A stretch of 46,233 nt of DNA from contig JAFLEF010000059.1 in the NCBI GenBank assembly GCA_017309115.1, positions 1 through 46,233 of the forward strand. Reading direction: 5' to 3'. Position 1 is the first letter of the stretch. Every line of letters begins with the position of its first letter. Below the pieces are notes generated by a model. That model had not been told where the DNA came from. It searched no databases and saw nothing but the letters and a program-made list of their open reading frames with translations. This document shows positions 119 to 26,947 of the stretch, piece after piece. Origin of the DNA: Verrucomicrobiota bacterium (lineage in GTDB: Bacteria > Verrucomicrobiota > Verrucomicrobiia > Limisphaerales > UBA9464). The position numbers and the translations under genes were made by a program.

Positions 119-262
119 CGCAGATTTAACGCAGATTTTGGGGATCGTTTTCAAAGCCAGAAAAAGGGCCGAGCCAAGCACCGTGGACCGCCCAAAAGCA
201 CGCCGGCACCCGAAGTCCCTCCTCAAAAGAAATCTGCGTTAATCTGTGCCTAATCTGCGGTT
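119..262. repeat. Inverted ATCTGCG-type repeat pair
   Basis: A copy of CGCAGATTTAACGCAGATTT lies at about 119-138, and the opposite orientation (AAATCTGCGTTAATCTG and a following AATCTGCGG) lies at about 229-260. The arms can pair over roughly 16-18 bases across a ~90-base spacer. It sits just downstream of the minus-strand glycosidase-like gene, and a related motif recurs near 37.83 kb. I see no gene in bases 1-299. Its role is unknown; it could act as a weak transcription end or simply be a dispersed repeat. Confidence 0.6.
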
Positions 263-299
263 ACCCCGCCCCCGTTCAGCAAGATCCGGAGCGCCGGCG

Positions 300-2786
300 T
301 CACTTCCCGGTCGGCTCGAGGCGGATCACTTCACCTGCCCGGGTGGAGAGGGTCAAGCGGTCGCCCGTGAGAACTTCGGATCCGCGGTCGCGGACCACCC
401 GAACCGAGCGGTCGGGCCAAGGATTCAGCAACACTGCGGTCCGGCCGCGCTCGCTTTCGAGGGTCACCGAAACCACGTCGCCCTGTCTCAGCTCGCTGCT
501 CACCAGGAAGGCACCGTGCGTGCGCAAGCGGCCAAAGCGGGCCGGACGGTCCCGCGGCCACACCGGGAAGACCCGCATCACGCCGTCATGCGTCTGCAAC
601 AGCATTTCGTTAATCGTGGCCGGGACCGCGGAGCAGTTCTCGATGCCGCCCCCACCCCGGAACACCAGCAGATTGGGAAACCCTCCCTCGGTCAGTTGCT
701 GACGCAACTTCGCCAGGATGTCCGTCGGATCATGCCCCACCCGCACCGCCCCGGGGAACGTCTGGCTGAAGCCGTTGAAGTGATTGATCCACTCGCGCTC
801 CGGCCAGTCCCGCACGTCATCCTGCAGTACCTTCAGCAACTCGGGATCCGACCCCAACCCTACCACACCCGTGGGCCAGACCATGCCCATGAACTCGATG
901 CGCGAGTTCTCCCGCTTGGGTCCGATCCGCTTCGACGCCGGTCCCGATTCCGCCCCGGCAATCCGCCGCACCCCCTCCACCGTGACTGTTGGGAACGCGC
1001 TCAAATGCGTCAGAATGTGGCGCCACTTTTCCTGCCGATCCGCATTCACTCCGAGTTCGCTCGTGAGCTCCAGCATCCCGGTGAAAAACATCCGGACCAA
1101 CCCCAGGGAGAGACAGTTGTTCTGGTCACTGCCGCCATCGCCCACCTCGCCAGAAGCATCCTTGGTGATGACGTAGCGCTTGCCATCCCAGTGCAGGTAG
1201 TCCTCCCAGAAGTTGGCCACCTCGAGCAGGAACGGATGCACGCGTCGGGCGTAGTCGAGATCGTAGGTGTGGTAGAACCGCTGGAACATGTTGACCGACG
1301 CGAACGTGGCATTGCTCTTTTGACCCAGGAACATGCGATTGCCCTCCCCAGGAATCGAATGTCCCTCCGGCATGAACGCCGTCTCCAATGCCTGCGGCCC
1401 AATACCCACGTCGTAGTAAACACCACGCGTTCCGAGATACTTCCGGGCGTTGGTCCGGGCGATGTCCAGGTACTCGAGAATCGGCGTGTCGTAGGGATCG
1501 GCCAATTCCGGATGATTGGACGAATAGACCGCCCACCACGGCGCCTCGTGGTTGTAGTTGAGATGGTAATCCGCCTGCCACGCCGGGCCGTCCGCCGTGA
1601 TCCAATTTCCGAACAAGGAAGGTGGGAACCGCGGATTCCGGCTGCAGGACGCCAACAAATACTGAGAGCCGTAATAGAACCGTTCGATCAAGGGATCCCC
1701 GACTTCCACGAAGGAACGTGACCAAAAGTTTCGCCACCATTCCTGATGCGCCGTTTTCAGCTCGCCGACCCGATCGACGGTCAGGGCCGCCACGCGTTGT
1801 TGGGCCGTTTCCAGGGGCGTGGCGGATTCCTCGCTCGTGACCACGGCCGCCACCAACCAAACCGGTTGACCCGGCGCCACCATGAACCGGTCAGCCGACC
1901 AGCCGTCCCCCCGGCTCCAGGGCAATCCCGCCACCCGATGATGAAACAGCCGCAGCGCCACTGCCGCTTCGGTGGATTTCTGAAAGGTCGTTTGTTCGAT
2001 GGCTACGGAGTTGGTAGTCGGCGCAAACCGGCGAACCGCCCAGTAGCCGTCCGGTAGATTGCCCGTGGAGGTTTCGGCCTCATTGCCGGTCATGGCCCAC
2101 AGATTCACATCCACACCCACGAGATCGGTGTCGGTGAACGGACTCTGATTGGTCGGGGAACCGTCCACCGACAACTCGATCACCAACAGATTCTCCGTCG
2201 CCGCAACCCAGGACCGCAGATGAATTCGGGCACCGGCGCGGGTGAAGGGTGGCGGATCCTCCACCCGGGCGGCAGTCGTCAGCACCTGCTGCACCTCTGC
2301 TGTCGCCAGAATTTGTTCCGCCCGAAACTGACCATTCACCAGCGCGGGAATCGTGATATCGATTCCTCCGATGGGCGCCGGATGCGCATTCGGATAGATC
2401 GACTTGGTCTTCCAGAAATCGTTCTTGGAAATCCAGAAGCGCTGCCGTTCCGGACAATTCGTCGGCGAGATGGAACGCACCGTCACATTGGCGCCACCGG
2501 GTTCTCCCAAACCAAAGTACTTCAAACGTTCCACCACCCCACCAATCGCCACGCCCAGATCGCCATTCCCCAACAGCGGGCCGTCGGGAATCTTGCGCGT
2601 GGGCAGCAGGATCGGCGGCACGTTGAACACTCCGGTCTGGCGCGAAACGATCGACCACGCCGACTGGGCCACCGACTCGTCCAGGCTGGCAGCGCGACTG
2701 GGAATCCAAGCGATCAACCCCACCAGTAGGCCGACCCAAACCCCACCCCAGGGCCACGGCGCGGCGTCAGGTCTCATCGATCTCAT
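300..2786 (-). CDS. Secreted six-hairpin glycosidase-like protein
   Basis: About 828 residues. A signal peptide or N-terminal membrane segment (GVWVGLLVGLIAWIP) precedes a motif LLGNGDLGVAIGG, like the N-terminal domain of GH95-type glycosidases. A middle region rich in Trp, Tyr and acidic residues (WQADYHLNYNHEAPWW; MPEGHSIPGEGN) looks like an (alpha/alpha)6 barrel. I infer an exported enzyme that cleaves a plant or algal polysaccharide side chain, but the exact GH family and substrate are not settled. A longer ORF begins at 2810. I chose ATG 2786 (an ATG at 2777 is equally possible) because the acetyltransferase upstream ends at 2767; either start gives a short overlap suggesting translational coupling. 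Confidence 0.72.
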   Translation of the reverse strand: MRSMRPDAAPWPWGGVWVGLLVGLIAWIPSRAASLDESVAQSAWSIVSRQTGVFNVPPILLPTRKIPDGPLLGNGDLGVAIGGVVERLKYFGLGEPGGANVTVRSISPTNCPERQRFWISKNDFWKTKSIYPNAHPAPIGGIDITIPALVNGQFRAEQILATAEVQQVLTTAARVEDPPPFTRAGARIHLRSWVAATENLLVIELSVDGSPTNQSPFTDTDLVGVDVNLWAMTGNEAETSTGNLPDGYWAVRRFAPTTNSVAIEQTTFQKSTEAAVALRLFHHRVAGLPWSRGDGWSADRFMVAPGQPVWLVAAVVTSEESATPLETAQQRVAALTVDRVGELKTAHQEWWRNFWSRSFVEVGDPLIERFYYGSQYLLASCSRNPRFPPSLFGNWITADGPAWQADYHLNYNHEAPWWAVYSSNHPELADPYDTPILEYLDIARTNARKYLGTRGVYYDVGIGPQALETAFMPEGHSIPGEGNRMFLGQKSNATFASVNMFQRFYHTYDLDYARRVHPFLLEVANFWEDYLHWDGKRYVITKDASGEVGDGGSDQNNCLSLGLVRMFFTGMLELTSELGVNADRQEKWRHILTHLSAFPTVTVEGVRRIAGAESGPASKRIGPKRENSRIEFMGMVWPTGVVGLGSDPELLKVLQDDVRDWPEREWINHFNGFSQTFPGAVRVGHDPTDILAKLRQQLTEGGFPNLLVFRGGGGIENCSAVPATINEMLLQTHDGVMRVFPVWPRDRPARFGRLRTHGAFLVSSELRQGDVVSVTLESERGRTAVLLNPWPDRSVRVVRDRGSEVLTGDRLTLSTRAGEVIRLEPTGK

Positions 2787-3210
2787 CCGCGAATTCCTGA
2801 ACCAGGACATACTTGCGGATGCCGGGGGCGAACCCGCTCAACTCCAACCGGACTTCGTAGCCCAACGCCCGATAAAAATCCGGCGCCTGAAAGCTGAAGG
2901 TCTCGAGGTAAATGGTCCGGCATCCCCGCGCCAAGGCCTGCTCCTCGAACGCTTCCATGAGATAGGTGCCCCAGCCCTGGCGCCGGTACGCCGTCTCCAC
3001 CCACACCTGTTGGACCTCGGCGCAGCGACCCCACGTCCGGCCCACCACCCCGCCCACCCACTGGTTGTCCTCGGTATGGAGCATCGCCACCAGCGGCCGC
3101 ACCTCGTCCAGCGGAGCAGCGGCCGTATTGAAGGCATCCAATCCCTGGTCCACCCGAGCCGCCTCGGGTGGCACCTCGTCGTAAACCGTTAATTGGACTT
3201 CCGATCGCAT
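2767..3210 (-). CDS. GNAT family N-acetyltransferase
   Basis: 147 residues, the normal length for a single-domain GNAT enzyme. The central stretch has the acetyl-CoA-binding signature Q/R-x-x-G-x-G/A as RRQGWGTYL, followed by the helix MEAFEEQALARGCRTIYLET and then FYRALGYEVR, the usual end of the fold. It would transfer an acetyl group from acetyl-CoA to a small amine or a protein N-terminus; the substrate cannot be told. Its stop overlaps the start of the glycosidase-like gene, so the two are probably co-transcribed although no functional link is obvious. Confidence 0.85.
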   Translation of the reverse strand: MRSEVQLTVYDEVPPEAARVDQGLDAFNTAAAPLDEVRPLVAMLHTEDNQWVGGVVGRTWGRCAEVQQVWVETAYRRQGWGTYLMEAFEEQALARGCRTIYLETFSFQAPDFYRALGYEVRLELSGFAPGIRKYVLVQEFADEIDET

Positions 3211-3325
3211 TCGCCAAGGACCGCAACGCTGGAGGCCGTCAACGAGGTCAAGATCTGAGCCGGAACGATTCAGTCCGGAACACCCAACGTTCCATCGGGT
3301 CGACTCGCGGTTAGGGAATTGCGGT

Positions 3326-4801
<1,476 letters not shown>

Positions 4802-4804
4802 GGT

Positions 4805-7800
4805 TCAGTTCCGGGTCACGGTTTCGTCGAGATTCAGCAGCAGGTTGGCGGCTAGCGTGTAGGCAGCCAGTTCGGAGGTGGCCAGCGACTCGGGCGGCCG
4901 GGAATCACCAAAGGTCACCACCTGCTTGGCCGCTTCCGCATCGGCCGAATAGCGGGCCAGATGCTGGTCGAGGGCCTTCTTCACAAGGGTCAGTTCCGTC
5001 GCTGTGGGCGGCCGGGACAACACGGTGCGATACCCAAACAGCAGTCGCTCGTCCGCCGTCTTTCCGCCTTCGAGCAACATCCGCTCGGCCAACCCGCGCG
5101 CCGCTTCGAAGTGTTGGACGTCATTCATCAACTGCAACGCCTGCAACGGGGTGTTGCTGCGCTCGCGGCGGGTGCAGGACTGCTCCCGGTTCGGCGCATC
5201 AAACGTGCTTAGGAACGGAGCCGGCGCGGTCCGCTTGAGGAAGGTGTACAGGCTCCGTCGATACAACGAACCGCCGGTGTCCTGCTTGTACTCCCGGGTG
5301 TTGGACCCGGAATAGGCGACGGGCTCCCAGATGTTGGGCGGCTGATACGGCTTCACGCCCTTGCCGCCAAACGTCGGATCCATCAGGCCCGACACGAAGA
5401 GCACGTTGTCCCGCAATTGCTCGGCATCGAGCCGGAAGCGCGGCCCCCGCTCGTAGTACCGATTCTGCGGATCGCGCGCGACCATCTCCGGCGTGACCCG
5501 GGAAGACTGACGGTAGGTGGCTGAAGTGACCATCAGCCGCACCAAGTCCTTCACGTCCCACCCTGAGCCCTGGAAGGTGGCCGCCAGCCAGTCGAGCAAT
5601 TCGGGATGACTGGGGGGCTGACCTTGGGATCCAAAGTCGTCGGTGGTCATCACCAGACCCGTGCCAAAGAACTGCTGCCAGAAACGGTTGACCGTCACCC
5701 GGGCGGTTAGCGGGTTCTCCGGCGCAACCAGCCAGCGAGCCAAGTCTAGCCGGGTGGCCCGGGGCGCCACCAGTTCGGCATTGCCCGGTTTGTCGCTGCC
5801 GGACGCCGGTGCCGCTGTCGAAACCGCCAGTTTCCCGGGTCCCAGGGCCAGCGGGGGCAGTACCGCCGGAACGCCGGGCTCCACCTTCTCGCCGGGCTTG
5901 TCGTACGCGCCCCGCATCATCACGAAGGCATCCCGAGGTTTCTCGAGATCCTTGAACACGAAGGTCTGCGGAATGGCGTCGTTGTAGGCGTCACGTTGCC
6001 GACGAACGTCCGCGACCGCCTGGTTCAACGGATCGAAGGTGGGCTTGGTCACCGCACAGATCTTGGAAAGATAGTGTTCCCGCAACTGGACGGTTTGATC
6101 GGAAGTGCGGTTGGTCGAGGACGTGTCCTTCAACACCTTGCGCAGGGCTTCGGGCAGTTCCTTGAGCTCCTTCCCTTCATTTTGCTTCGTCCAAACCGCG
6201 AAGGAATACAGCGGGTCATTGGCCGGATCGACCTTGCCCACGGCGCCCGCCTTGTCCCAGTAAACCGTCCCGCCGAATTGGGTGTAGGCCACTCCCCGCA
6301 GCTTATCGCCGCCCTTCAGCCCCACCTTCTCCGCCGGCACTTCCAAGCGAACCCATTCACCCGCCTTCGGCAGGTCCCCGACATGGATCCGGCTGGGTTT
6401 GCCCTTTTCGCCCCAGCCAATGGCGTCGGGATCACCCCACACCGCCCGATGCTCCCAATTGTCGCGGTTGAATTGCAGCATCACCGACTTCGGCGGATTG
6501 GCCGGATCCAAATAAACGTAGGCGTACAACTGGGCATTGGCGGGTACGGCCAGGGTGGGAGATCCCGCCTCGAAAACATCCTGGCTGACGACCGTGTCCT
6601 GACGTTTGAGCGCCACCTTGCCGGCAAAGACTGGTCCCTGATCCGCCGTCACCAACGTTGGCGTGCCCTGGGCCTTGAATCCCGCCGGGAGTTCGTCATC
6701 GAACCACACCACGTCCTCCACCTTCACCTCGGGCGGCGGCGTCTGGGTGGCTGGATCGACGTAAGCCACGTTCAACAGGGCCGCCGTCACCTGGGCCTCG
6801 GCGTCCTTGATCTGGCTTTCGAATTCCGCCAAACGCCGTTCGTTCTCGGGCGTCTTGAGCTGAATCACCGGCATGGTCCGAAGCGCGTTGCCGTCCATGG
6901 CCGGATCGGCCGAGCTGTAGAAGAACGCGTACAGCTGATAAAACTCCTTCTGCGAAAGCGGATCGAACTTGTGATCGTGGCAGACCGCGCACCCGGCGGT
7001 CAGACCCAGCCACGCTTGAGCCGTCGTGGAAGCCCGGTCCACGGCGTAGCGGAACAACCATTCGGCATCAATGGATCCCCCTTCCCCGGTGGTCACGTTG
7101 CACCGGTTAAAGCCGGTGGCCACCAACTGATCCTGCGTCGGTGACGGCAACTGGTCTCCGGCCAACTGCTCGATGGTGAATTGGTCGAACGGCAGGTTCC
7201 GGTTGAAAGCGTTCACCACCCAGTCGCGGTACGCCCACATCTGCCGCTCGTTGTCGAGGTGCATGCCGTGGGTGTCGGCATAGCGGGCGACATCCAACCA
7301 ATGCTTGGCCATGTGCTCGCCGTATTGCGGTGACACCAGGAACCGCTCCACCAACCGCTCATAGGCCCCGGGCTGGGTGTCCGCCAGAAACGCATCAACT
7401 TCCGCCACTGTGGGCGGCAACCCGCGCAAATCGAAGCTGAGCCGGCGAATCAACACCGTGCGATCGGCTTCGGGGGACAGTTTGGATCCGCGCTGGGCCA
7501 GATTAGCGGAAATGAACCGGTCGATCGGATTCTGCACCGACCGAACCTCAGTGGTCGGCACCGCCGGAGGGGCAATCGGCTCAAACGCCCAGTGTTTTTG
7601 GTACGCCGCACCTTCCTCGATCCACCGCTTGATGAGCTGCTTTTGTTCCGCGGTAAGCGTTTTGTGCGTCTCCGGCGGCGGCATCACGTCATCGGCATCG
7701 GACGTTTCCAACCGCTTCCACACTTCGCTCGCCTTCAGATCCCCGGGCTTGATGGCTACCACGCCCTCCTTGTTCGGCAAAAAGGCCCCTTCCGGTACGT

Positions 7801-10347: not shown

Positions 10348-13300
10348 TCAAGCCGACGTGGTCGCGAGCTGAGCCGGTGATTCCGCCGGGCGCGTACGCC
10401 GGAATGCCGCCGCGAAGTCGTCCAACCAGGAATACACCACCGGCGTCACCACCAGGGTCAGCAAGAGTGCCAGCGACTGACCGCCAATCACCACAATGGC
10501 AATGGAGCGCCGTTCATCTGCGCCCGGACCATTGCCCAAGGCGAGCGGCAGCATGCCGGCCACCAAAGCCAGGGTGGTCATGAGGATCGGTCGCAACCGA
10601 TCGCGATTTGCCTCCAGGATCGCCGTCGTCCGATCCCGTCCCAGGGAACGCAGATGATTCGTGTGATCGATCTGAAGAATGGCGTTCTTCTTCACGACGC
10701 CAAAGAGCACGAGCAATCCCAGGCCCGAATACAGGTTCAGCGTGCTGCCGGTCACCCACAGGGAAAATAACGCGAAGGGCACGGACAACGGCAGCGAAAG
10801 CAGAATGGTCAACGGATGGACCAAACTTTCGTACTGGGCGGCCAGGATCATGTACATGAACACCACCGACAGCGCGAACGCCCAGAGGAACTCCCGGAAC
10901 GTTCGCTCCAGTTCCCGGCCCCGTCCCGCCACCCGGGTCGAATAGCCCGGCGGAAGATCCATTCCCGCCGCCGCCTCCCGCAGCGCCTCCAACCGGTCGG
11001 CCAAAGCGTACCCTTGGGCGATGCCGGCGCGGAGGCTCACCTGACGCTGCCGATCCAACCGATCAATGCGCGACGCCGTGGTGGTCGGCACCAAGCGCAC
11101 CACGTTGTCCAACCGCACCAATTGACCGTCCCGATCGGGCACAAACAACCGCGCAATGGTGTCCGCGTCCCGTCGATCGTCCGTGTTGAGCCGCAGGGTC
11201 ACGTCGTAATCTTCGTTCATCTGCACGTCCCGGAACCGCGAGAGCCGATCATCTCCGCCCACCATCAACCGCAACGCATCAGCGATATCGGCCGTGGACA
11301 CATTCAACGCCGCCGCCCGATCCCGATCGATCTCCACCTGGAGTTCCGGCTTGTCGAGTTTCAAGGTCGTGTCGGCATCGATCAGACCCAGTTCCGGCGC
11401 CCGTTCGCGCAGGGCATTGGCGTAGGCCGACAACTTCTCCAATTCCGGCCCCAGGAAGACGAAATCGATATCCCAACGGGAACCTCCAAAATTAAAGGAG
11501 GCAATGTTGCTCACCCCCACCCGCAGTCCGTATCGGCGCAGCTTCGTCCGCACTTCGGCCATCACTTCCCGCTGGGATCGGTTTCCCACGAAGGCCTTCT
11601 GCGGCTGCAAGCGCATCAGTTCCCGGCCGAGTCGGCCCAAGGAAAAGCGTCGTTCCTCAAAGGGGGTCATCGTTACGTACGCCCGGCCGGAATTCACGCT
11701 GCCCATGAAACCGCCGCCAGTGGTGGCCAGGACTCGTTGGATGCCAGGAATCTTCAGCAGGTCCGCCTCAATGAGCTTCATGGCGGCATTCATCGACTCG
11801 ATGCTGGTCCCTTCCGGCGCGGTGATGTTGACCTCGAATTCGCCCTCATCAATGTCGGTCGGGATGTATTCCTGGCGGACCAGATGATAGAGCGGGATGG
11901 ACGTCGCCATTACACCCACCGCCACCAGCGCCACCCACCCGCGATACTTCAAGCACCTTTCCAGCAGCCACAGATACTTGTCCTGCATTGCTCCGTAGAA
12001 CCCGCCCCGGGTTTTCGGCGCGTGAGCGCCGGCATTTTCCCGACGCAGTAGCCGAGCACTCATCATCGGCGTGAGCGTGAACGACACCAGCAGGCTGACC
12101 AGCACTGCCACGGCAGCGGTGATGCCGAACTGGAACAGGAAGCGCCCCGAGATGCTCGACATGAACGAGACCGGAACAAAGATCACCACCAGACTGAACG
12201 TCGTCGCCATCACCGCCAGCGCGATTTCCGCCGTGGCTTCGCCGGCGGCCTGGAACGGGGTCAGCTTCTTCTCTTCCACGAACCGATAAATGTTCTCCAA
12301 CACCACAATGGCATCATCGATGACGATGCCCACCATCAGCACCAAGGCGAGCATGGTCACGCTGTTCAGCGTGAAATTGAGCGCCCACATCATGCCGAAG
12401 GTCGCAATCACCGACGTCGGAATGGCCACCGCAGCAATCACCGTGGAGCGCCAGTCCCGCATGAACACGAGCACCACCACACACGCAAGAAAGCTGCCCA
12501 GGACCAGGTGCACGTTGATCTCGTGCAAGGCCTGATAGATGTACTTCGACTGATCCCGAATGACCTCGAACCGCACGTCGGAAGGCAACTGCTCGCTCAA
12601 ACCCGGCAGACGTGACTTGACCGCCTCAATGACCGCCACCGTGTTGGCCCCGCTCTGGCGGCGAATCTCCAAAATTACCGCCGGCTCTCCGTTGAGGCGG
12701 GTGATCGAACGCTGCTCCTTAGTGCCGTCCTCGGAACGTCCGACGTCCTTGAGACGAATCGGTTCGCCTTCCCGGGTCGCGATCACCAGATCATCAAACT
12801 GCCGTGTTTCAGTAAACCGGCCGAGGGTTCGCAGGGATTGTTCCCGCACCGCCGCCGTCACATTGCCTCCGGGAATGTCCACGTTCTGCCGCTCCAGGGC
12901 ATCCCGCACCGCCGTTACCGGCAGCCCGTAGGCCGCCAGTCGATCGGCATCAATCCAGAGGTTGATCGCTCGTTCCGCCGCGCCTTCGATCTGCACCCCA
13001 CCCACACCGGCCGCCCGTTCGATCTGCACCTTGACGATCTTGTCCGCCAATTCGGTCAGTTCCCGCAACGACCGCGGACCCGACAGCGCCAGGGTCATCA
13101 CCGGCGCTTGATCGTTGTCGAACTTGGAAATCACCGGAGCCAGCGCTTCGCGGGGCAATCGCCGACCCAACGTGGCCACCCGGTCCCGGACATCTTGGGC
13201 CGCTGACTCGATGTCGCGGTCCAGTTCAAAGGTCACCAGCACCATAGAATTACCCGGCCCGGAAATCGACCGGAGTTCGCTGATGCCATTGACCGTGTTG

Positions 13301-13515
13301 ACCACCTCTTCGATGGGACGGGAAACCTGCGATTCCACTTCGGCCGGCGACGCCCCGGGCAGCGAAGTGCTGATGCGAACAGTCGGTAGATCCACCGACG
13401 GCAGGCGATCCACGCCCAACCGGAAGTAACTCGCCATCCCGACCACCACGAGCGCCATGATCAGCATGGCCGCGAAGACCGGTCGACGAATGCACGTATC
13501 GGCGAGTTTTTGCAT
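10348..13515 (-). CDS. RND multidrug efflux transporter (AcrB/HAE1 type)
   Basis: 1055 residues, full length for the HAE1 family. TM1 (PVFAAMLIMALVVVGMASYF) is followed by SLPGASPAEVESQVSRPIE and the family signature MVGIVIDDAIVVLENIYRF, whose Asp pair lies in TM4 and carries protons. The duplicated half repeats the layout up to VVIGGQSLALLLTLVVTPVVYSWLDD. It would be the inner-membrane, proton-driven pump of a tripartite efflux system. The adaptor gene ends 27 bp upstream on the same strand, forming an operon. No TolC-type outer-membrane partner is in the window. Confidence 0.95.
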   Translation of the reverse strand: MQKLADTCIRRPVFAAMLIMALVVVGMASYFRLGVDRLPSVDLPTVRISTSLPGASPAEVESQVSRPIEEVVNTVNGISELRSISGPGNSMVLVTFELDRDIESAAQDVRDRVATLGRRLPREALAPVISKFDNDQAPVMTLALSGPRSLRELTELADKIVKVQIERAAGVGGVQIEGAAERAINLWIDADRLAAYGLPVTAVRDALERQNVDIPGGNVTAAVREQSLRTLGRFTETRQFDDLVIATREGEPIRLKDVGRSEDGTKEQRSITRLNGEPAVILEIRRQSGANTVAVIEAVKSRLPGLSEQLPSDVRFEVIRDQSKYIYQALHEINVHLVLGSFLACVVVLVFMRDWRSTVIAAVAIPTSVIATFGMMWALNFTLNSVTMLALVLMVGIVIDDAIVVLENIYRFVEEKKLTPFQAAGEATAEIALAVMATTFSLVVIFVPVSFMSSISGRFLFQFGITAAVAVLVSLLVSFTLTPMMSARLLRRENAGAHAPKTRGGFYGAMQDKYLWLLERCLKYRGWVALVAVGVMATSIPLYHLVRQEYIPTDIDEGEFEVNITAPEGTSIESMNAAMKLIEADLLKIPGIQRVLATTGGGFMGSVNSGRAYVTMTPFEERRFSLGRLGRELMRLQPQKAFVGNRSQREVMAEVRTKLRRYGLRVGVSNIASFNFGGSRWDIDFVFLGPELEKLSAYANALRERAPELGLIDADTTLKLDKPELQVEIDRDRAAALNVSTADIADALRLMVGGDDRLSRFRDVQMNEDYDVTLRLNTDDRRDADTIARLFVPDRDGQLVRLDNVVRLVPTTTASRIDRLDRQRQVSLRAGIAQGYALADRLEALREAAAGMDLPPGYSTRVAGRGRELERTFREFLWAFALSVVFMYMILAAQYESLVHPLTILLSLPLSVPFALFSLWVTGSTLNLYSGLGLLVLFGVVKKNAILQIDHTNHLRSLGRDRTTAILEANRDRLRPILMTTLALVAGMLPLALGNGPGADERRSIAIVVIGGQSLALLLTLVVTPVVYSWLDDFAAAFRRTRPAESPAQLATTSA

Positions 13516-13542
13516 GACTCAGGAAGGATCGGACGGGCCCAA

Positions 13543-14808
13543 CTACGAAGCCGCGGCGGTCGCGGGAACGGGCGAAGGTCGCACCGGAGTGCCCCCCGGC
13601 AATCCGCCGGGATTACGAATGACCGCATCCCCAGCCCGCAGCCCCTGCAACACTTCGATCCAAGGTCCCTGACGTCGTCCCGTTACTAATCGACGTTCCA
13701 CCGCGGTATTGGTCAGTACCAACAACGCTTTCTCGGTGCCGGCAAAGGTGATCAACGCGTCGGCGGGAATGGCCAACCCCGGGATGGCTTCCGCCACCAC
13801 AATTTCGGCCCGGGCAAAGGCGCCGGGACGAAGATGTCCAGGATTCTTCAATTGACCTTCGACCCGCAGCAACCGGGTCCGTTGATCAAGGGCCGGGCTG
13901 ACCCGGGCGACGGTCCCGGTGTAATGATTGGTGTCGCCGTCAAAGCTAACCCGTATGGGCTGCCCCACCTGAACCGACATCGACTGACGCTCGGGAACGT
14001 CCAACCGCAGCCGAAGCGGATCCACCTGCACCACGGTCAGCACCGGACTGCCCGCCGGGAGAAACTCGCCCACATTGGTCAGGCGCGCCTGCACCACGCC
14101 ATCAAAGGGCGCGCGCAGAGAAGTATCCTGAACCGCCTGCCGGGCAATTTCGAACTCCGCCCGGCGCTGCGCGAGGATCGCCTTGCGCTCGCGCGCCTCC
14201 TGCAGAGCGTCGCTGTAGCGGTTCAGCATCACCTGATACTCGGCCGTAGCCCGTTCAAACTCGGCCTGCGAACTGATGTTCTGTTCCTGCAGCTTTTGAA
14301 TTCGTTCCAGGCCCTTCTTGGCTTCCTCCATCAACGCTCTGGCTTCCCGAACGGTGGACACCTTCTCCTCCTCCACCGAGTCGTCGGTCCCTTCCAACGG
14401 CAGTCCTACCCGGACCCGGGCCTGACCCAGCAGGGCAGCCGACTGGTTCAAGCGAAGTTCGTAATCTTTCGGTTCGACCTGGGCCAACACGTCACCGGCC
14501 TTGACCGGGCTGCCGACATCCACCAGCAACTGCTTGAGCCGGCCGGTGTTCTTGGTGCTCAGGGTCGCGCGATCCACGGCTTCCAAGGAACCCAGGACCG
14601 TCAGCACCTGCTCCCACGGCCGATTCTCCACCGAGCTCACCTTCACCTCGACCGTTTCGGTCGCTCCCCGGGCTTCGGTGGTCTTGGCGGGCTGACAGCC
14701 AGTGACGGCCAGCCCCAGCCCGAGACCGACCCCAGTCAGGGCCAGAAAACCTAGTCCCCGGGGGAACTTCGGCCGGGGCGCGTTACCGGGTGAAAGTGGA
14801 GAAACCAT
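13543..14808 (-). CDS. RND efflux periplasmic adaptor (MFP/HlyD family)
   Basis: 421 residues. A hydrophobic N-terminus ends in a lipobox (LGLAVTGC), so it is probably an inner-membrane-anchored lipoprotein. The biotinyl-lipoyl-like halves are seen at VDRATLSTKNTGRLKQLLVDVGSPVKAGDVLAQVEP and LRAPFDGVVQARLTNVGEFLPAGSPVLTVVQ, with a coiled-coil hairpin between (about residues 125-225). The beta-barrel and membrane-proximal domains follow (PIRVSFDGDTNHYTGTVARVSPALDQRTR). It links the RND pump downstream to an outer-membrane channel. Confidence 0.93.
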   Translation of the reverse strand: MVSPLSPGNAPRPKFPRGLGFLALTGVGLGLGLAVTGCQPAKTTEARGATETVEVKVSSVENRPWEQVLTVLGSLEAVDRATLSTKNTGRLKQLLVDVGSPVKAGDVLAQVEPKDYELRLNQSAALLGQARVRVGLPLEGTDDSVEEEKVSTVREARALMEEAKKGLERIQKLQEQNISSQAEFERATAEYQVMLNRYSDALQEARERKAILAQRRAEFEIARQAVQDTSLRAPFDGVVQARLTNVGEFLPAGSPVLTVVQVDPLRLRLDVPERQSMSVQVGQPIRVSFDGDTNHYTGTVARVSPALDQRTRLLRVEGQLKNPGHLRPGAFARAEIVVAEAIPGLAIPADALITFAGTEKALLVLTNTAVERRLVTGRRQGPWIEVLQGLRAGDAVIRNPGGLPGGTPVRPSPVPATAAAS

Positions 14809-21544: not shown

Positions 21545-24160
21545 GTGGATAACCCTCCCTCACCTAGCCGACCTCGTTCGCCCACCAAACTGGGCGATTT
21601 CGAGGTTATTCGCGAAGTGGGTCGCGGCGGCATGGGCATTGTCTACGAGGCGAAACAGATTTCTCTCAATCGCCGGGTGGCGCTCAAGGTATTGAGCGGC
21701 GCGGTGCTTTCGAGCTCCCGAGCCGTCACCCGTTTTCGCCGGGAGGCAGCCGCGGCCGCGCGACTGCACCACACCAACATCGTCCCCATTTACTCCATTG
21801 GCGAAGACGAAGGCACACACTTCTACGCGATGGAATTCATCGAGGGACCGTCCCTCGACTTCGTCATCCGCCAGTGGCAGGTCCAGATTTCCGTCGACCA
21901 ATCCACCCGCGCCCACACCCCGTTCGGCAGCCGAAAGAGCAACCCCATCCCCAAAGTTCCCTCCAGCGGGCCCGATGACCGGATTCATGCGGCCGAAACG
22001 GTCGCCGGCCCGTCTGATCCATTGCCGCTGACGCCCATCATCCCGCGGGTCGTTCCGGGCAATGTCTTTCTCAAGCCCAATTCCTTCGATGAAATTGCCC
22101 AGTTGATTGCCGGGGTGGCAGATGGATTGGAACACGCCCATCGACATGGAATCATCCACCGGGATGTCAAACCCTCCAACCTGCTCCTCTCACCGGAGGG
22201 AATTCTTAGCATCAATGATTTTGGTCTGGCCCGGGTGTTGGAGGAACCTTCCGTCACGTTGTCCGGCGAATTTCTCGGTTCACCGCTGTACGCGTCACCC
22301 GAGCAAATCACGGGCAATCCCGACCAACTCGATCACCGGACGGATGTCTATTCCCTGGGCGCCACGCTGTATGAACTGCTGACCTTGCGTCCGCCCTTCC
22401 CCGGCGAAGGTCGGGAACAGGTGCTGGCCCAGGTTCTACGCGACGAACCTACGCCGCTGCGAAAGATCAATCCCAAGGTTCCGCTGGACCTCGAGACCAT
22501 CTGCCTCAAGGCCATCGAAAAGGATCCGAACCGGCGGTATCAGCACGCTCGCGATCTGGCCGAGGATCTGCGCCGATACGTCAACCGCTATGCCATCACC
22601 GCCCGCCGGACCCATCCGCTCCAGCGGCTCGTCAAGTGGAGCAAACGACATCCCGCCCTTGCCGCGTCAATCAGCCTCCTCCTGCTCTCCGGAATCATCG
22701 CGTTCATTGGTGTTCGCCAGCATCGGCTGCTAAACGAACAGCGTTTGGCCGAGAAGCGGGTGCTGGAACAGCGTCTGCTCAAGGAAACCGAGGAACGAAC
22801 CCTGATTTACACGCTTAGTGGCGACTTGGGTTCAGCGGAGGCGTTGCTGCCCGACGCCGAACGTCTGGGAGCGGCACCAGCGTGGCTGGCCCTGCGGCGG
22901 GGTCAGATTGCCTATCAGCGTGGTGATTACGATCGGGCGCTGAAGTTCCTTCAGGAGGCTGCGTCCCGGGGAGCGGGAGGCCCGGACCTTTCCACCCGCG
23001 GCCTTCTCTCTGCCACCTATGCGGCCACCTACGAATGGGAGCTTTCGAAAAAGCTGGCCGAAGAGGTGATGAAGGAACAGCCCACCACAGCTGAGGAATT
23101 CCTTTTCAAAGGCCTTGCTGAGTCGCTTTACGACCCGGTCCAAGGACTGAAGGATCTGGATGAAGCCGTACTCCGCCGGGACTCGGTCATGGCCCGGGTG
23201 GTCCGGGCGGAAACCAAAGCCCGCTACGCCATCATTCGGACGGATCTCAAGAAGGCCGAAGAAGCCGTCAAGGACGCCACCGTGGCCGAGGGCATGTGGC
23301 CGGGAAATCCCAACGCCCTGGCTGCCCGCCTATTCACCTGCCTGTGCGCTGCCACGCTGTTTCAGATTGAACAACAGCCGCAGAAACGGGCCGCCGTTCT
23401 GGAACAAGCCGACGCCGACGCGCGCGCTCTGGAAGCGTTTCCGGGACTGCCGCTGGGATTGTGGCCACGAGCCATGTACTACCGAACCACCGGTCAGGAA
23501 GATAAGGCGCTCAAGCTACTCCGCCGGGAAGGAGCCACCCTGAGGGATTTTCGCATTCGTTCGGTGTACGTCGAGTTGTTGGTGTGGAATCGCGAATTCA
23601 CCGAGGCACTGGCCGCCTTGGAGTCGTTCTACCCGCCCGCCCGCCTCCAGAACCGTGAACTCATGCGGGCCCTGATTTTGGCGATGATACCCGATCGGCA
23701 CGCGGACGCTCTAAACGCCTTCAACGACCTGACCACCCACTGGGGCCAGGGCGATCTCCCAGCCTGGCGCCAAACCATCCTGTTGCTGCTGGGTCGGAAT
23801 CAACAGGCCGTGGAAGATAGCGCCCGGGTTTTGCAGAATCCCGAGTCGCTCCCCGGCCTCTCTCGGGAATGGTACCTCCAACTGCTGGCGTACTACGCCG
23901 ACCGAATCACCCCGGAGCAGTTGCTCGCCGCCGCGGGAAAGTCCCAGCTGCGCATCTGCGATGCCGAGTTCTTCATCGGCTTGAAGGAACTGGCCCAAGG
24001 ACGCCGCGAAGAGGCCCGCCGACATCTCTCCAACGCCGTCAACTCCGGGGTCTTTTTCCTGTTCGCGCATCAGATGAGCCACGGAATCCTGGCCCAATTG
24101 GACCACGATCCCACCTGGCCCCCCTGGATTCCTGCGAACCCGCCACCGGCAAATCGTTGA
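21545..24160 (+). CDS. Transmembrane Ser/Thr protein kinase with TPR-like C-terminal domain
   Basis: 871 residues from GTG 21545. The kinase domain has the Gly loop GRGGMGIVYEAK, catalytic Lys at about 48 (VALKVL), HRDVKPSN with HRD at 205-207, DFG at 225-227, and SPLYASPEQITG in the activation segment. About 65 extra residues rich in Ser and Pro lie between the hinge and the C-lobe helix (roughly 115-180). One transmembrane segment at about 371-391 (AASISLLLLSGIIAFIGV) is followed by a long helical region with TPR-like units. This is the Hanks-type receptor kinase common in Planctomycetes and Verrucomicrobia. The input signal and substrates are unknown. Confidence 0.93.
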   Translation: MDNPPSPSRPRSPTKLGDFEVIREVGRGGMGIVYEAKQISLNRRVALKVLSGAVLSSSRAVTRFRREAAAAARLHHTNIVPIYSIGEDEGTHFYAMEFIEGPSLDFVIRQWQVQISVDQSTRAHTPFGSRKSNPIPKVPSSGPDDRIHAAETVAGPSDPLPLTPIIPRVVPGNVFLKPNSFDEIAQLIAGVADGLEHAHRHGIIHRDVKPSNLLLSPEGILSINDFGLARVLEEPSVTLSGEFLGSPLYASPEQITGNPDQLDHRTDVYSLGATLYELLTLRPPFPGEGREQVLAQVLRDEPTPLRKINPKVPLDLETICLKAIEKDPNRRYQHARDLAEDLRRYVNRYAITARRTHPLQRLVKWSKRHPALAASISLLLLSGIIAFIGVRQHRLLNEQRLAEKRVLEQRLLKETEERTLIYTLSGDLGSAEALLPDAERLGAAPAWLALRRGQIAYQRGDYDRALKFLQEAASRGAGGPDLSTRGLLSATYAATYEWELSKKLAEEVMKEQPTTAEEFLFKGLAESLYDPVQGLKDLDEAVLRRDSVMARVVRAETKARYAIIRTDLKKAEEAVKDATVAEGMWPGNPNALAARLFTCLCAATLFQIEQQPQKRAAVLEQADADARALEAFPGLPLGLWPRAMYYRTTGQEDKALKLLRREGATLRDFRIRSVYVELLVWNREFTEALAALESFYPPARLQNRELMRALILAMIPDRHADALNAFNDLTTHWGQGDLPAWRQTILLLLGRNQQAVEDSARVLQNPESLPGLSREWYLQLLAYYADRITPEQLLAAAGKSQLRICDAEFFIGLKELAQGRREEARRHLSNAVNSGVFFLFAHQMSHGILAQLDHDPTWPPWIPANPPPANR

Positions 24161-24255
24161 CTGGTCGACCGGGTCAATCCCGCCCAGCCCGCCACAGGAC
24201 TGCTCCGGCGTGCGGAGTTGAACGGGGTTTGCTCTTGACCTCACCTCCCTCTCCG

Positions 24256-24271
24256 CCGCTTTGATAAGCGG
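24256..24271 (+). promoter_or_regulatory. Perfect 6-bp hairpin between kinase and borosin locus
   Basis: CCGCTT-TGAT-AAGCGG forms a 6-bp stem with a four-base loop, 69 bp before the repeat-protein ATG. A TTGACC at 24235-24240 could be a -35 box, but no -10 stands at 17 bp. The hairpin has no T run, so it is more likely an operator or a leader element than a terminator. The 179 bp between the kinase stop and ATG 24340 otherwise contain nothing I recognise. Confidence 0.3.
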
Positions 24272-24339
24272 TAAGCCCGCTGAAAGCCTGCTGCAGGTTT
24301 CCGGGTGCTTCTTCCGAACCATCCCTCAACTTCATCTCC

Positions 24340-24705
24340 ATGGAATCCAACTCCGGAACCTCAAGCTCCAACACCACCGTCGTGGTCCATCATGTCGTTC
24401 ACCACGTCGTGCATTACGTCGCCACACCACAACCCTCCTACGCGCTCGCCCAGGGAATGCTGCTGCCACATCCGTCGGCCGGACAGCTGCATCCGGCCCC
24501 TGGCATGATCTTCCCCAGCCCGACGCCGGGCGCCCTGCTCCCCGGACCTGTCGCTGGTCAGATTCATCCCAGTCCCGTCCCCGGAATGATTCATCCGAGT
24601 CCCACTCCGGGAATGATCCTGCCCTCACCAACGGCCACTCCCGGCATGCTCCACGCGGGACCTTCCGCTGGACAATTGGATCCCGGACCTGCCGGCAAAA
24701 ACTGA
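24340..24705 (+). CDS. Gly/Pro nonapeptide-repeat protein with Val/His N-terminal run
   Basis: 121 residues, no family recognised. Residues 1-12 are Ser/Thr/Asn-rich. Residues 13-27 are a Val/His run (TTVVVHHVVHHVVHYV). From residue 39 on there are about nine repeats of consensus G-[MQA]-[IL]-[LHF]-P-[SG]-P-x-[PA] (for example GMIFPSPTP, GQIHPSPVP, GMIHPSPTP, GMILPSPTATP), ending PAGKN. No signal peptide or membrane span is evident. It is 64 bp upstream of the borosin precursor gene on the same strand. It lacks the helical borosin-binding domain. It might be an additional substrate, a scaffold, or unrelated. The reading frame keeps regular amino-acid repeats, which supports real translation. 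Confidence 0.6.
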   Translation: MESNSGTSSSNTTVVVHHVVHHVVHYVATPQPSYALAQGMLLPHPSAGQLHPAPGMIFPSPTPGALLPGPVAGQIHPSPVPGMIHPSPTPGMILPSPTATPGMLHAGPSAGQLDPGPAGKN

Positions 24706-24736
24706 CCGTCTGCGCATCCCGCTCCGTGCTCCCGTT

Positions 24737-24764
24737 CCGGCCCTCATCGGCCGGGCTTTCCCTT
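24737..24764 (+). terminator. Terminator- or attenuator-like hairpin before the borosin precursor
   Basis: CCGGCC-CTCATC-GGCCGG gives a perfect 6-bp GC stem at 24737-24754, followed by a pyrimidine tract (GCTTTCCCTTTTC) that runs up to the precursor ATG at 24770. It could attenuate transcription between the repeat protein and the precursor/methyltransferase pair, or hide the precursor start. No Shine-Dalgarno is visible before 24770. Confidence 0.45.
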
Positions 24765-24769
24765 TTCTC

Positions 24770-25111
24770 ATGACCGGACGCCTCACCCCCTTCCTCGTGG
24801 CCCTCGCTCGCGATCCCGAACTCTACGCTGCCTGGATCCGCCAACCCGAGGCCGTCATGGTCTGGGCCGGGTTGGATGCCGAGGAGCGGGCGGTCCTCCA
24901 TTCGCGGGATCAGGACCGGATCTATCAAGCGCTCTTTCGCCCGCCTTCAGCAGCCGCCGCCCCACCATGGTCGATTGATGGCGGCGTTCCTTCGTCCGCC
25001 TCGGCGGCGGGAACGGCGGTTTACTGGGGCTCGTACGCCTATCCTCCCGTGACCGTGACTCTCCCCGTGACCCCCGCGCCTCCGTCGAGTCCCTCCGCTC
25101 CCTTTGCATGA
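24770..25111 (+). CDS. Split-borosin precursor peptide
   Basis: 113 residues. Residues 5-56 (LTPFLVALARDPELYAAWIR, then QPEAVMVWAGLDAEERAVLH) form a small helical domain. It resembles the SonA borosin-binding domain (the -PEAVM- and -GLxxEE/Q- motifs) and the C-terminal helical segment of OphMA before its core. An Ala/Pro/Ser linker (57-80) leads to a hydrophobic C-terminus, residues 81-105 (GTAVYWGSYAYPPVTVTLPV, then TPAPP), the likely core whose backbone amides would be N-methylated. The tail is Ser/Pro-rich. The stop overlaps the methyltransferase ATG as ATGA. The assignment rests on recalled sequence likeness to the two families; the exact core limits are inferred. Confidence 0.85.
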   Translation: MTGRLTPFLVALARDPELYAAWIRQPEAVMVWAGLDAEERAVLHSRDQDRIYQALFRPPSAAAAPPWSIDGGVPSSASAAGTAVYWGSYAYPPVTVTLPVTPAPPSSPSAPFA

Positions 25112-25899
25112 ACCTCACCTTTGACGAACGACTGGTCGCGGTCGGCACCGGAATCCGCACGGTGGGTCAGCTTACCGGTGAAGCCCTCGCGTGGATCAAA
25201 CGCGCCGACAAGGTCCTTTACGTGCTCAGCGATCCCGTAAGTGAACGGCTCATCCATGACCTGAACCCAACCGGAGCTGAATCCCTCCAACACTTCTATG
25301 TGGAGAACAAAGTTCGCCGGGAGATTTACGAGCAGATGATTCAGTTGACCCTCGGATACGTCCGGTCGGGCCGGGTCGTTTGTTTGGCGGTTTACGGTCA
25401 TCCCGGGGTCTTCGCGTTTCCCACGCACGAGTCCATTCGCCGGGCCCGGGCGGAAGGCTACCAGGCTCGCATGCTGCCGGGTGTTTCGGCCGAAGACTGC
25501 TTGTTTGCTGACTTCAATATCGATCCCGGGTCCGCTGGCTGTCAGTCCTATGAAGCCACCGATTTCCTGGTCAACCGACGAATCACCGACCCGTCGAGTC
25601 ATTTGATCCTCTGGCAAATGATTGTGCTGGGCGACAGCACGTATCGATGGCAGGTGGATTCCCCTCCAGCGATGCGACAGTTCATCGCCCGACTGACCCA
25701 GCAGTATCCCCCGGACCACGTCGTGTATGTGTACGAAGCTTCCATCTTCCCCGGAGTCGAAGCGCGCATCGAACCGGTGACCATCGCCCAACTGGGCCAG
25801 GTGCGGTACACCACCATGTCGACACTCTACGTACCACCATGCGTGGCGCCGCGGGCCGATCTGCAGTTGTACCAATCCCTGGGAATTCCTCTCGGTTAG
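25108..25899 (+). CDS. Borosin alpha-N-methyltransferase (split type)
   Basis: 263 residues, tetrapyrrole-methylase fold. It opens with VAVGTGIRTVGQLTGEAL (SAM-binding loop), has GHPGVFAFPTHESI near residue 98, and ARMLPGVSAEDCLFADFNID at about 120-139, nearly the same words as in OphMA. Tyr64, Arg70 and Tyr74 line up with the OphMA catalytic-pocket residues Tyr66, Arg72 and Tyr76; OphMA Tyr63 is replaced by Gln61. Unlike OphMA it ends right after the catalytic domain (YVPPCVAPRADLQLYQSLGI) and carries no core, so it must act in trans on the overlapping precursor, as SonM does on SonA. It would use SAM to methylate backbone amide nitrogens. No protease, cyclase or exporter gene is adjacent. 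Confidence 0.9.
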   Translation: MNLTFDERLVAVGTGIRTVGQLTGEALAWIKRADKVLYVLSDPVSERLIHDLNPTGAESLQHFYVENKVRREIYEQMIQLTLGYVRSGRVVCLAVYGHPGVFAFPTHESIRRARAEGYQARMLPGVSAEDCLFADFNIDPGSAGCQSYEATDFLVNRRITDPSSHLILWQMIVLGDSTYRWQVDSPPAMRQFIARLTQQYPPDHVVYVYEASIFPGVEARIEPVTIAQLGQVRYTTMSTLYVPPCVAPRADLQLYQSLGIPLG

Positions 25900-26110
25900 G
25901 ACGTCTGGCCGGACCTGGAACCGAGGCCCTCATCGCCTGCGGCTCCGGTCCTTTCCAGAGTGCCGCGCCGAGACGCGCTGGAGCCTCGCTGTTGCTCGCC
26001 ATTGCCAGAGGCTTGCCAAACGGTTGGCTCATCCCTATTCCACAGGCACCCAAACTCACCGGGCAGTCACCTGTCTCGGTCAGCCATTCCAAACTTTCTC
26101 TTGCCGTCCG

Positions 26111-26947
26111 ATGAACCGTTTTCTCAAACCGTTGCCCTGGGTCTCCGCCGCCCTGCTCACCGTCAGTGGATCCGCCGCCATTGTGATTGATCCGCTCAGT
26201 TGGGGATTACCCGTGGGAGCCACGTTTCGGTTGGTGGTGCTGACGACCGGCACCACCGCCGCCACCAGCAGTTCCATCGGCACTTACGACACCTTCGTCA
26301 ACACCCAGGGACTCTCCGGAATCACTTACAACGGCTCTTCGCTAACTTGGCAGGCACTGGGTCAAACCGCGGGTTCCGATCCAACGACGGATGCCACGCG
26401 GTTTAGTTCCCAAGCCAACTCCGTCGCCACTTACAACCTCAACGGCGCCCAGGTCTCCAACACCTCAAGCAATCCGTTCTGGGTCACCGGCGGCTTCAGC
26501 TCCCACCTGGCCCCCATCGACTGGACCATCAACGGTTCCGGTAATCTCGAGCAGGTGTCGGGATCGACTCGGGTCTGGACCGGATTTGATTTCCGGGGAG
26601 ATGCCGTGACTGCCAGCAACTACGACGACGATGGCAATCAGATCGGAACAGTGACCGCCACGTTGGGATCCTCCGCCACGTATCAGGACTACGACTTCGA
26701 CTCCTTCACTCCGATTCCCAACCAAACGCTTTACCCGTATTACGGCCGCGCGGGCGCGAGCGCCAACGGATGGGCTGCGATTGGCGAAGACAGCCCGCTC
26801 AGCACTCAATATCGGATGTACGCGATTTCCGGACCCATCACCGTCACCGCGGTACCGGAAGTGGAAGTGGTCTTCGCCGCCGCCGCACTCGCCCTTGGGG
26901 GCTTCACGTATCGGTTACGCCGAAGCCGAGCAGACCGGGTTGCCTAA
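26111..26947 (+). CDS. PEP-CTERM anchored secreted protein
   Basis: 278 residues from ATG 26111 (the longer frame upstream lacks a leader). A signal peptide ([14 protein letters not shown]) precedes a Ser/Thr/Gly/Asn-rich domain with no recognised fold. The C-terminus has the PEP-CTERM layout: VPEVEVV, then a hydrophobic helix [12 protein letters not shown], then a basic end RLRRSR. Such proteins are exported and processed by an exosortase. None is in the window. The 211 bp upstream of the ATG hold no gene I can support. The stop overlaps that of the convergent DUF1501 gene. Confidence 0.82.

Follow-up and report, generated by a model that had tools for sequence, protein, structure and literature searches.

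Two overlapping genes in a Verrucomicrobiota contig raise the question of whether a backbone N-methyltransferase and the peptide that it would modify are encoded there as separate proteins, and whether any neighbouring gene takes part. The stretch of DNA analysed, referred to below as the window, makes up an entire contig (C67, 46,233 bases); the genome to which it belongs comprises 7.5 Mb in 111 contigs and is 95.3% complete. More than 1000 split borosin pathways have reportedly been predicted, and one borosin precursor is said to be a metalloprotease inhibitor. In a split borosin, the borosin binding domain (BBD) and the core lie in one protein and the methyltransferase is separate, an arrangement called 'class 3' in PMC11395268. 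According to PMC11285071, borosin clusters of type IV occur widely among bacteria, and further classes, V to X, have been defined. Split borosins are already known and widespread in bacteria, and the pair in the window very probably joins this known class. EreM, an enzyme outside the borosins, also N-methylates the backbone of a ribosomal peptide (PMC9259500), and such methylation can raise peptide stability and membrane permeability (PMC8429565).

Organization of the locus

The two frames of the initial annotation, of 113 and 263 aa with an ATGA overlap, were found at 24770-25111 and 25108-25899. The features of the locus are as follows.

21545-24160, + strand: Ser/Thr protein kinase, upstream and in the same direction (Pkinase 1.2e-42; C-terminal part TPR-like by eye)
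24340-24705, + strand: 121-aa repeat gene, possible second substrate (internal repeat, codon pattern)
24736-24755, + strand: weak terminator-like hairpin, T-rich tail, in the gap that separates the repeat gene from the precursor (site scan)
24770-25111, + strand: putative split-borosin precursor P0002, 113 aa (translation, binding-domain profile)
24770-24934, + strand: BBD, residues 1-55 of the precursor (profile matches)
25010-25084, + strand: candidate core, residues 81-105, GTAVYWGSYAYPPVTVTLPVTPAPP (sequence only)
25108-25899, + strand: stand-alone borosin-type alpha-N-methyltransferase P0003, 263 aa (phmmer, pocket residues, tree)

The label 'Verrucomicrobiota-like' given to the stretch beforehand is consistent with the DUF1501 and PSCyt2/PSD1 genes nearby, which are typical of planctomycetes and Verrucomicrobiota. 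Four terminator-like sites lie in 24000-26300, compared to a mean of 1.5 in shuffles; the fold of the hairpin at 24736-24755 is no stronger than in shuffles (z -0.67). Among the frames inspected by family matches and by eye, no protease or exporter adjoining the pair was recognised. Genes of an RND-type efflux pump and a membrane-fusion protein were noticed by eye at 10348-14808 on the minus strand, about 10 kb from the pair.

Identity of the methyltransferase

The motifs GHPGVF, ARMLPGVSAEDCLFAD and SYEATDFL, from which a catalytic domain like that of fungal OphMA had been recognised, are present in the 25108-25899 protein. In a phmmer search of PDB sequences, this protein matches SonM (2.4e-59), dbOphM (1.2e-56), OphMA (6.7e-52) and MroMA (4.6e-51), and entries of these enzymes make up all of the top 25 matches (E <=1.2e-50). 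The match after these 25 borosin entries, a cobalt-precorrin-4 methylase, is the best tetrapyrrole methylase and has an E value of 0.085. Pfam assigns TP_methylase (1.1e-18) and NCBIfam gives YabN at 4.2e-12, far below the YabN cut-off; the PDB names of SonM indicate that borosin enzymes, too, carry the TP-methylase family label.

The SonM pocket residues Y58, R67, Y71 and Y93, which were mutated in PMC8429565, correspond to Y64, R70, Y74 and Y96 of the window enzyme, so that all four residues tested are kept. The first three are the Tyr64, Arg70 and Tyr74 that had been claimed by comparison with OphMA. In SonM, the exchange Y71F, at the position equivalent to Tyr74, lowered kcat/KM about 98-fold. 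The SonM pocket residues are absent from two further tetrapyrrole methylases of the same genome, save one aligned Arg in one of them. A midpoint-rooted tree of 18 rows groups the window enzyme with its sister, a partial enzyme from genome G707 (99/99), and places the two tetrapyrrole methylases of the own genome across a long branch (94/91, not starred) from the 16 borosin-type rows. Since only 2 of the 15 inner branches are starred, no finer placement of the window enzyme is claimed. Clustering with tetrapyrrole methylases instead of borosins, which the initial annotation had named as evidence against its reading, was seen neither in the PDB matches nor in the tree.

The alignment spans OphMA residues 11-263 and ends there, which bears out the statement that the enzyme stops where OphMA continues to its own core. 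Clasp and core are not fused to this 263-aa protein. A fused borosin of types I-III was rejected, as methyltransferase, clasp and core are not in one chain.

The putative precursor and its binding domain

The 24770-25111 protein consists of an N-terminal BBD, a Pro/Ala/Ser linker and a Val/Thr/Tyr/Pro tail; the tail previously noted, YWGSYAYPPVTVTLPV, is present. When compared to SonA sequences alone, P0002 gave only a weak match (E about 1), and family libraries do not name it: the best Pfam matches are DUF6232 (E 0.098) and LigA (0.19), and NCBIfam gives the IniB N-terminal domain (E 2.4e-4) with 21 bits versus a cut-off of 40. Therefore, a separate BBD profile was built from nine other domains, with P0002 excluded: SonA and the domains of eight loci examined alongside (L002, L003, L007, L008, L009, L010, L011 and L012). 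This profile, whose members were picked by adjacency or fusion to an enzyme and by motif and are biased to that extent, recognises P0002 with 39.5 bits (E 1.5e-10) in a search set of 673 window frames and 5000 shuffles of the first 60 residues of P0002, the best shuffle reaching 10.9 bits. This upholds the view that the PEAVM...GLDAEE domain is SonA-like. Among the matches listed, which extend down to about 5 bits, there is none to any other of the 673 window frames.

A second profile including P0002, in whose alignment one row is off by three residues, found one place at E<=0.5 in the own genome, P0002 itself, and one place each in genomes G315 and G379. It gave no BBD match in G707, and of the remaining ten relatives among the 14 genomes searched, 2 have weak matches (E 0.002 to 0.39). 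Among solved structures, it matches SonA by construction, the clasp region of dbOphM and OphMA at E 0.003-0.004 and gallate dioxygenase at 3e-4. The clasp and gallate dioxygenase matches agree with relations stated in PMC8429565. A plasmid search with P0002 gave no match. A BBD precursor immediately 5' of a methyltransferase is also found in L002, L007, L010 and L012.

A probable split borosin pair

Because both proteins have borosin homologs, the pocket residues are kept and the gene order is that of such systems, the two genes very probably constitute a split borosin pair. The division into a SonA-type precursor and a trans-acting methyltransferase, proposed from the outset, is supported by the PDB matches, the BBD profile, the pocket residues and the tree. 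In all likelihood, the locus represents a minimal split borosin, in which the BBD of the precursor would dock on a methyltransferase dimer, as in SonM/SonA, and the tail would be methylated. By analogy with the same complex, the tail would thread into the active site, where methyl groups from SAM would be placed iteratively on several backbone amides in N-to-C order. The upstream repeat gene may be co-expressed with the pair.

A close parallel is SonM-SonA of Shewanella oneidensis, a type IV system (PMC8429565), which likewise has a separate 263-aa methyltransferase and a short precursor with an N-terminal BBD, and shares the four pocket residues Y58, R67, Y71 and Y93 (SonM numbering). The window differs in its 113-aa precursor, compared to a SonA chain of 71 residues, in its long Pro/Ala/Ser linker and in the repeat gene upstream. 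In Shewanella electrodiphila (L003), unlike the window, the candidate precursor lies downstream of the enzyme. The pair on psymA of Sinorhizobium meliloti KH35c (L010) resembles that of the window in that a BBD precursor with an alternating Val/Thr/Ile tail lies directly 5' of the methyltransferase; however, the two methyltransferases are 36.6% identical, the S. meliloti linker is short and no repeat frame above z 6 occurs in the stretch examined there. The fused borosins OphMA and dbOphMA have a homologous methyltransferase domain (E 1.2e-56 to 1.2e-50) and a clasp that weakly matches the BBD profile, but their clasp and core are fused to the enzyme, whereas those of the window are separate.

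The position of the core deserves separate consideration. SonA is methylated at residues 63 and 65, the tenth and twelfth after the BBD (residues 1-53; PMC8429565). The same register in P0002 falls on A64 and P66, within the Ala/Pro-rich AAAAPPWSIDGG (residues 61-72), and by analogy would put the first methylation sites near residues 64-66. The Val/Thr stretch VTVTLPV (residues 94-100) lies about 30 residues past this register. Such a long reach to the candidate core is not impossible: for the bacterial type III enzyme KchMA, as many as 11 modifications on residues 742-796 have been reported (PMC11395268). The candidate core had initially been described as different from known ones, with a product that would likely be new, and it is less unusual than claimed: VTVTLPV resembles, by eye, the tail GVSVNVTITLGISIP of the S. 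meliloti precursor. That precursor ends in this tail at a SonA-like distance, so that an alternation of Val and Thr is not in itself a novelty.

The upstream repeat gene

The initial annotation was silent on the gene at 24340-24705, which lies 64 nt upstream of the precursor in the same direction. Its product has a Ser/Asn/Thr start and a Val/His tract, VVVHHVVHHVVHYV, followed by nine repeat units that resemble GM[IL]xPSPTP. Codon differences between units occur in 0.67 of comparisons at position 3, 0.45 at position 1 and 0.30 at position 2. This pattern is as expected of a translated repeat and suggests that the gene is translated. Its codon-use score is the best of six frames yet negative, and below that of the pair; its synonymous-only codon score is not the best of six. 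When 1161 frames from 11 borosin loci were scored for internal repeats, this gene reached z 14.5, at a lag of 9. In a wider scan of 2418 frames from 230 kb of loci, with eleven overlapping loci left out, z exceeds 6 in nine frames, and the three of these with fewer than 200 codons are this gene, a repeat frame of G707 and an antisense frame in the Azospirillum locus L009.

The repeat protein has no family match in Pfam or NCBIfam and no BBD match with either BBD profile. A search of 39 genomes gave two weak matches besides its own (L014 and L015), and that in L014 was judged by eye to be due to chance. The gene may also belong to the borosin pathway.

A sister locus and the distribution of the enzyme

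The nearest relative of the methyltransferase found is in G707, a genome of the same order that is 82% complete, with 57% identity over residues 69-260; this enzyme lies at the end of a 6.5-kb contig (C124), and its start is cut by the contig end. At 131-5774 on this contig (L017), a frame of Gly-Trp decapeptide repeats, an APH-HopA1 enzyme, and genes weakly VioB-like and ferritin-like were observed. The APH-HopA1 protein matches APH at 3.6e-7 and HopA1 at 1.5e-26, and matches LxmK of class V lanthipeptides at 1.3e-14, below the cut-off; the VioB match, in a large protein, is weak (0.0042), and the ferritin-like match is at 1.1e-58. From these gene contents, the contig is a possible hybrid cluster of borosin and class-V-lanthipeptide-like type. 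The two loci have enzymes that are sisters in the tree and a short-repeat frame each, and differ in that G707 has the LxmK-related APH-HopA1 and the ferritin-like genes, and a BBD was not found there. A class V lanthipeptide hybrid was rejected for the window, as no match to a HopA1-type protein (PF17914) was found in its own genome (one genome, 95.3% complete), though the G707 contig has one.

The two repeat frames align with a BLASTP E value of 0.002, and the alignment scores above all 1000 residue shuffles and above 998 of 1000 controls in which the units were permuted. However, an unrelated window frame ties at its score of 63 and others come close (61 and 58) among 422 frames, so that the two repeat genes are not established as homologs. 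When the G707 repeat was searched across the order, with at most 13 candidates per genome scored among the matches listed, 3 of 321 genomes appeared, namely G707 itself and two weak matches in long frames. The presence of a short-repeat frame near both borosin loci found in the order is suggestive (n=2).

Relatives of the methyltransferase at E<=1e-10 are few. They occur in 1 of 59 relatives (the own genome only), and, with the own genome included, in 2 of 321 genomes of the order, 3 of 384 in the class sample and 2 of 387 in the phylum sample; the order of G379 yields 1 of 239. These genome sets overlap. As few genomes match across the relatives, order, class and phylum sets, the enzyme is rare and patchy in the group. 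A scan of named genomes, which finds none but close relatives, gave 3 loci, and 20 of 72,556 plasmid records match at E 1e-5, all with less than 60% identity. Apart from the own genome, 10 of 28 relatives have the DUF1415 gene that lies upstream of the pair. In these relatives, the 2.6 to 3.6 kb around that gene gave no match to any of 10 further window proteins, and an insertion of the locus is therefore neither shown nor dated.

Alternative interpretations

The family labels TP_methylase and YabN could be taken to indicate an ordinary tetrapyrrole methylase (CobA/CbiF/YabN) beside a small unrelated gene. Such labels are equally given to borosin enzymes, and the gap between the SonM match and the best tetrapyrrole methylase match, the kept pocket residues, the BBD partner and the tree all contradict this interpretation, which is regarded as extremely improbable. 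A locus that has decayed or is inactive, and is present by chance, would fit the patchy distribution within the order and the lack of recognised maturation genes adjoining the pair; it is nevertheless very unlikely, for both frames are intact, the codon use of each is the best of six frames (weakly so for P0002) and the pocket residues are kept.

The repeat gene brings in a further interpretation, namely a system of three parts, in which the methyltransferase, docked by the 24770-25111 protein, would also or mainly methylate the repeat protein, either at the Val/His tract or in the repeats. The codon pattern of the repeat gene suggests translation, the gene is close to the pair in the same direction and has no family match, and the only other borosin enzyme found in the order shares its small contig with a short-repeat frame. 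Moreover, the Azospirillum enzyme, fused to a BBD-like stretch, adjoins a separate protein with long Val/Asp alternation, and a figure legend in PMC11395268 defines one class in which the enzyme carries the BBD and the core is separate, and a second in which no BBD is identified. On the other hand, the repeat protein lacks a BBD match, P0002 carries its own tail, the likeness to the G707 frame is tied by an unrelated frame, a terminator-like hairpin separates the repeat gene from the precursor and the codon-use score is lower than that of the pair. On balance, a three-part system is considered unlikely. A joint interpretation of both loci, in which the BBD protein would recruit the methyltransferase to the separate nonapeptide-repeat, Val/His-rich protein, and in the sister lineage the same kind of enzyme would act together with a class-V-lanthipeptide-like dehydrating enzyme on the Gly-Trp repeat peptide, is more doubtful still. 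If true, peptides of the sister lineage would be both N-methylated and dehydrated.

The minimal split borosin remains the preferred interpretation. Enzymes that act in trans to N-methylate the backbone of ribosomal peptides are of interest as tools. The window pair contributes a precursor whose linker is long, from an order in which the enzyme is present in 2 of the 321 genomes searched, and it hints at a possible connection of borosins with repeat-built peptides.

Other borosin loci

Several of the loci examined alongside have arrangements of their own. In the Gemmatimonadota MAG (L002, 9962-11509), tandem methyltransferase domains follow a BBD precursor; in the second domain, SonM R67 and Y71 are replaced by Gly and Cys, so that it may be inactive. 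In G379 (L011, 7831-10272), a frame of 814 codons contains an internal BBD-like stretch and an Asn/Thr/Val/Asp-rich stretch followed by the methyltransferase, so that the frame is fused with the candidate core before the enzyme. The locus of G315 (L012, 6968-8937) has a BBD precursor with a poly-Thr stretch, a methyltransferase and an overlapping convergent frame with a HEAMH motif. In Azospirillum lipoferum AZO_p2 (L009, 1900-3798), a protein annotated as hypothetical, with long Val/Asp and Ile/Asp alternation, lies directly upstream of the methyltransferase with the fused BBD-like stretch and is possibly a separate substrate of this enzyme.

On a plasmid of Bradyrhizobium sp. 155 (L008, 3974-8762), two borosin-type methyltransferases, a BBD precursor with the tail VAFRVIRIRNIRIRFGV, a TauD-type dioxygenase and a prolyl oligopeptidase lie side by side. 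The oligopeptidase is reminiscent of OphP of omphalotin, and the second methyltransferase has Glu at the position of SonM Y93. Finally, kinase or GGDEF proteins with TPR-like parts were seen by eye beside four borosin loci: the window (21545-24160), L002 (5831-9637), L003 (11032-12909) and L004 (8218-9972).
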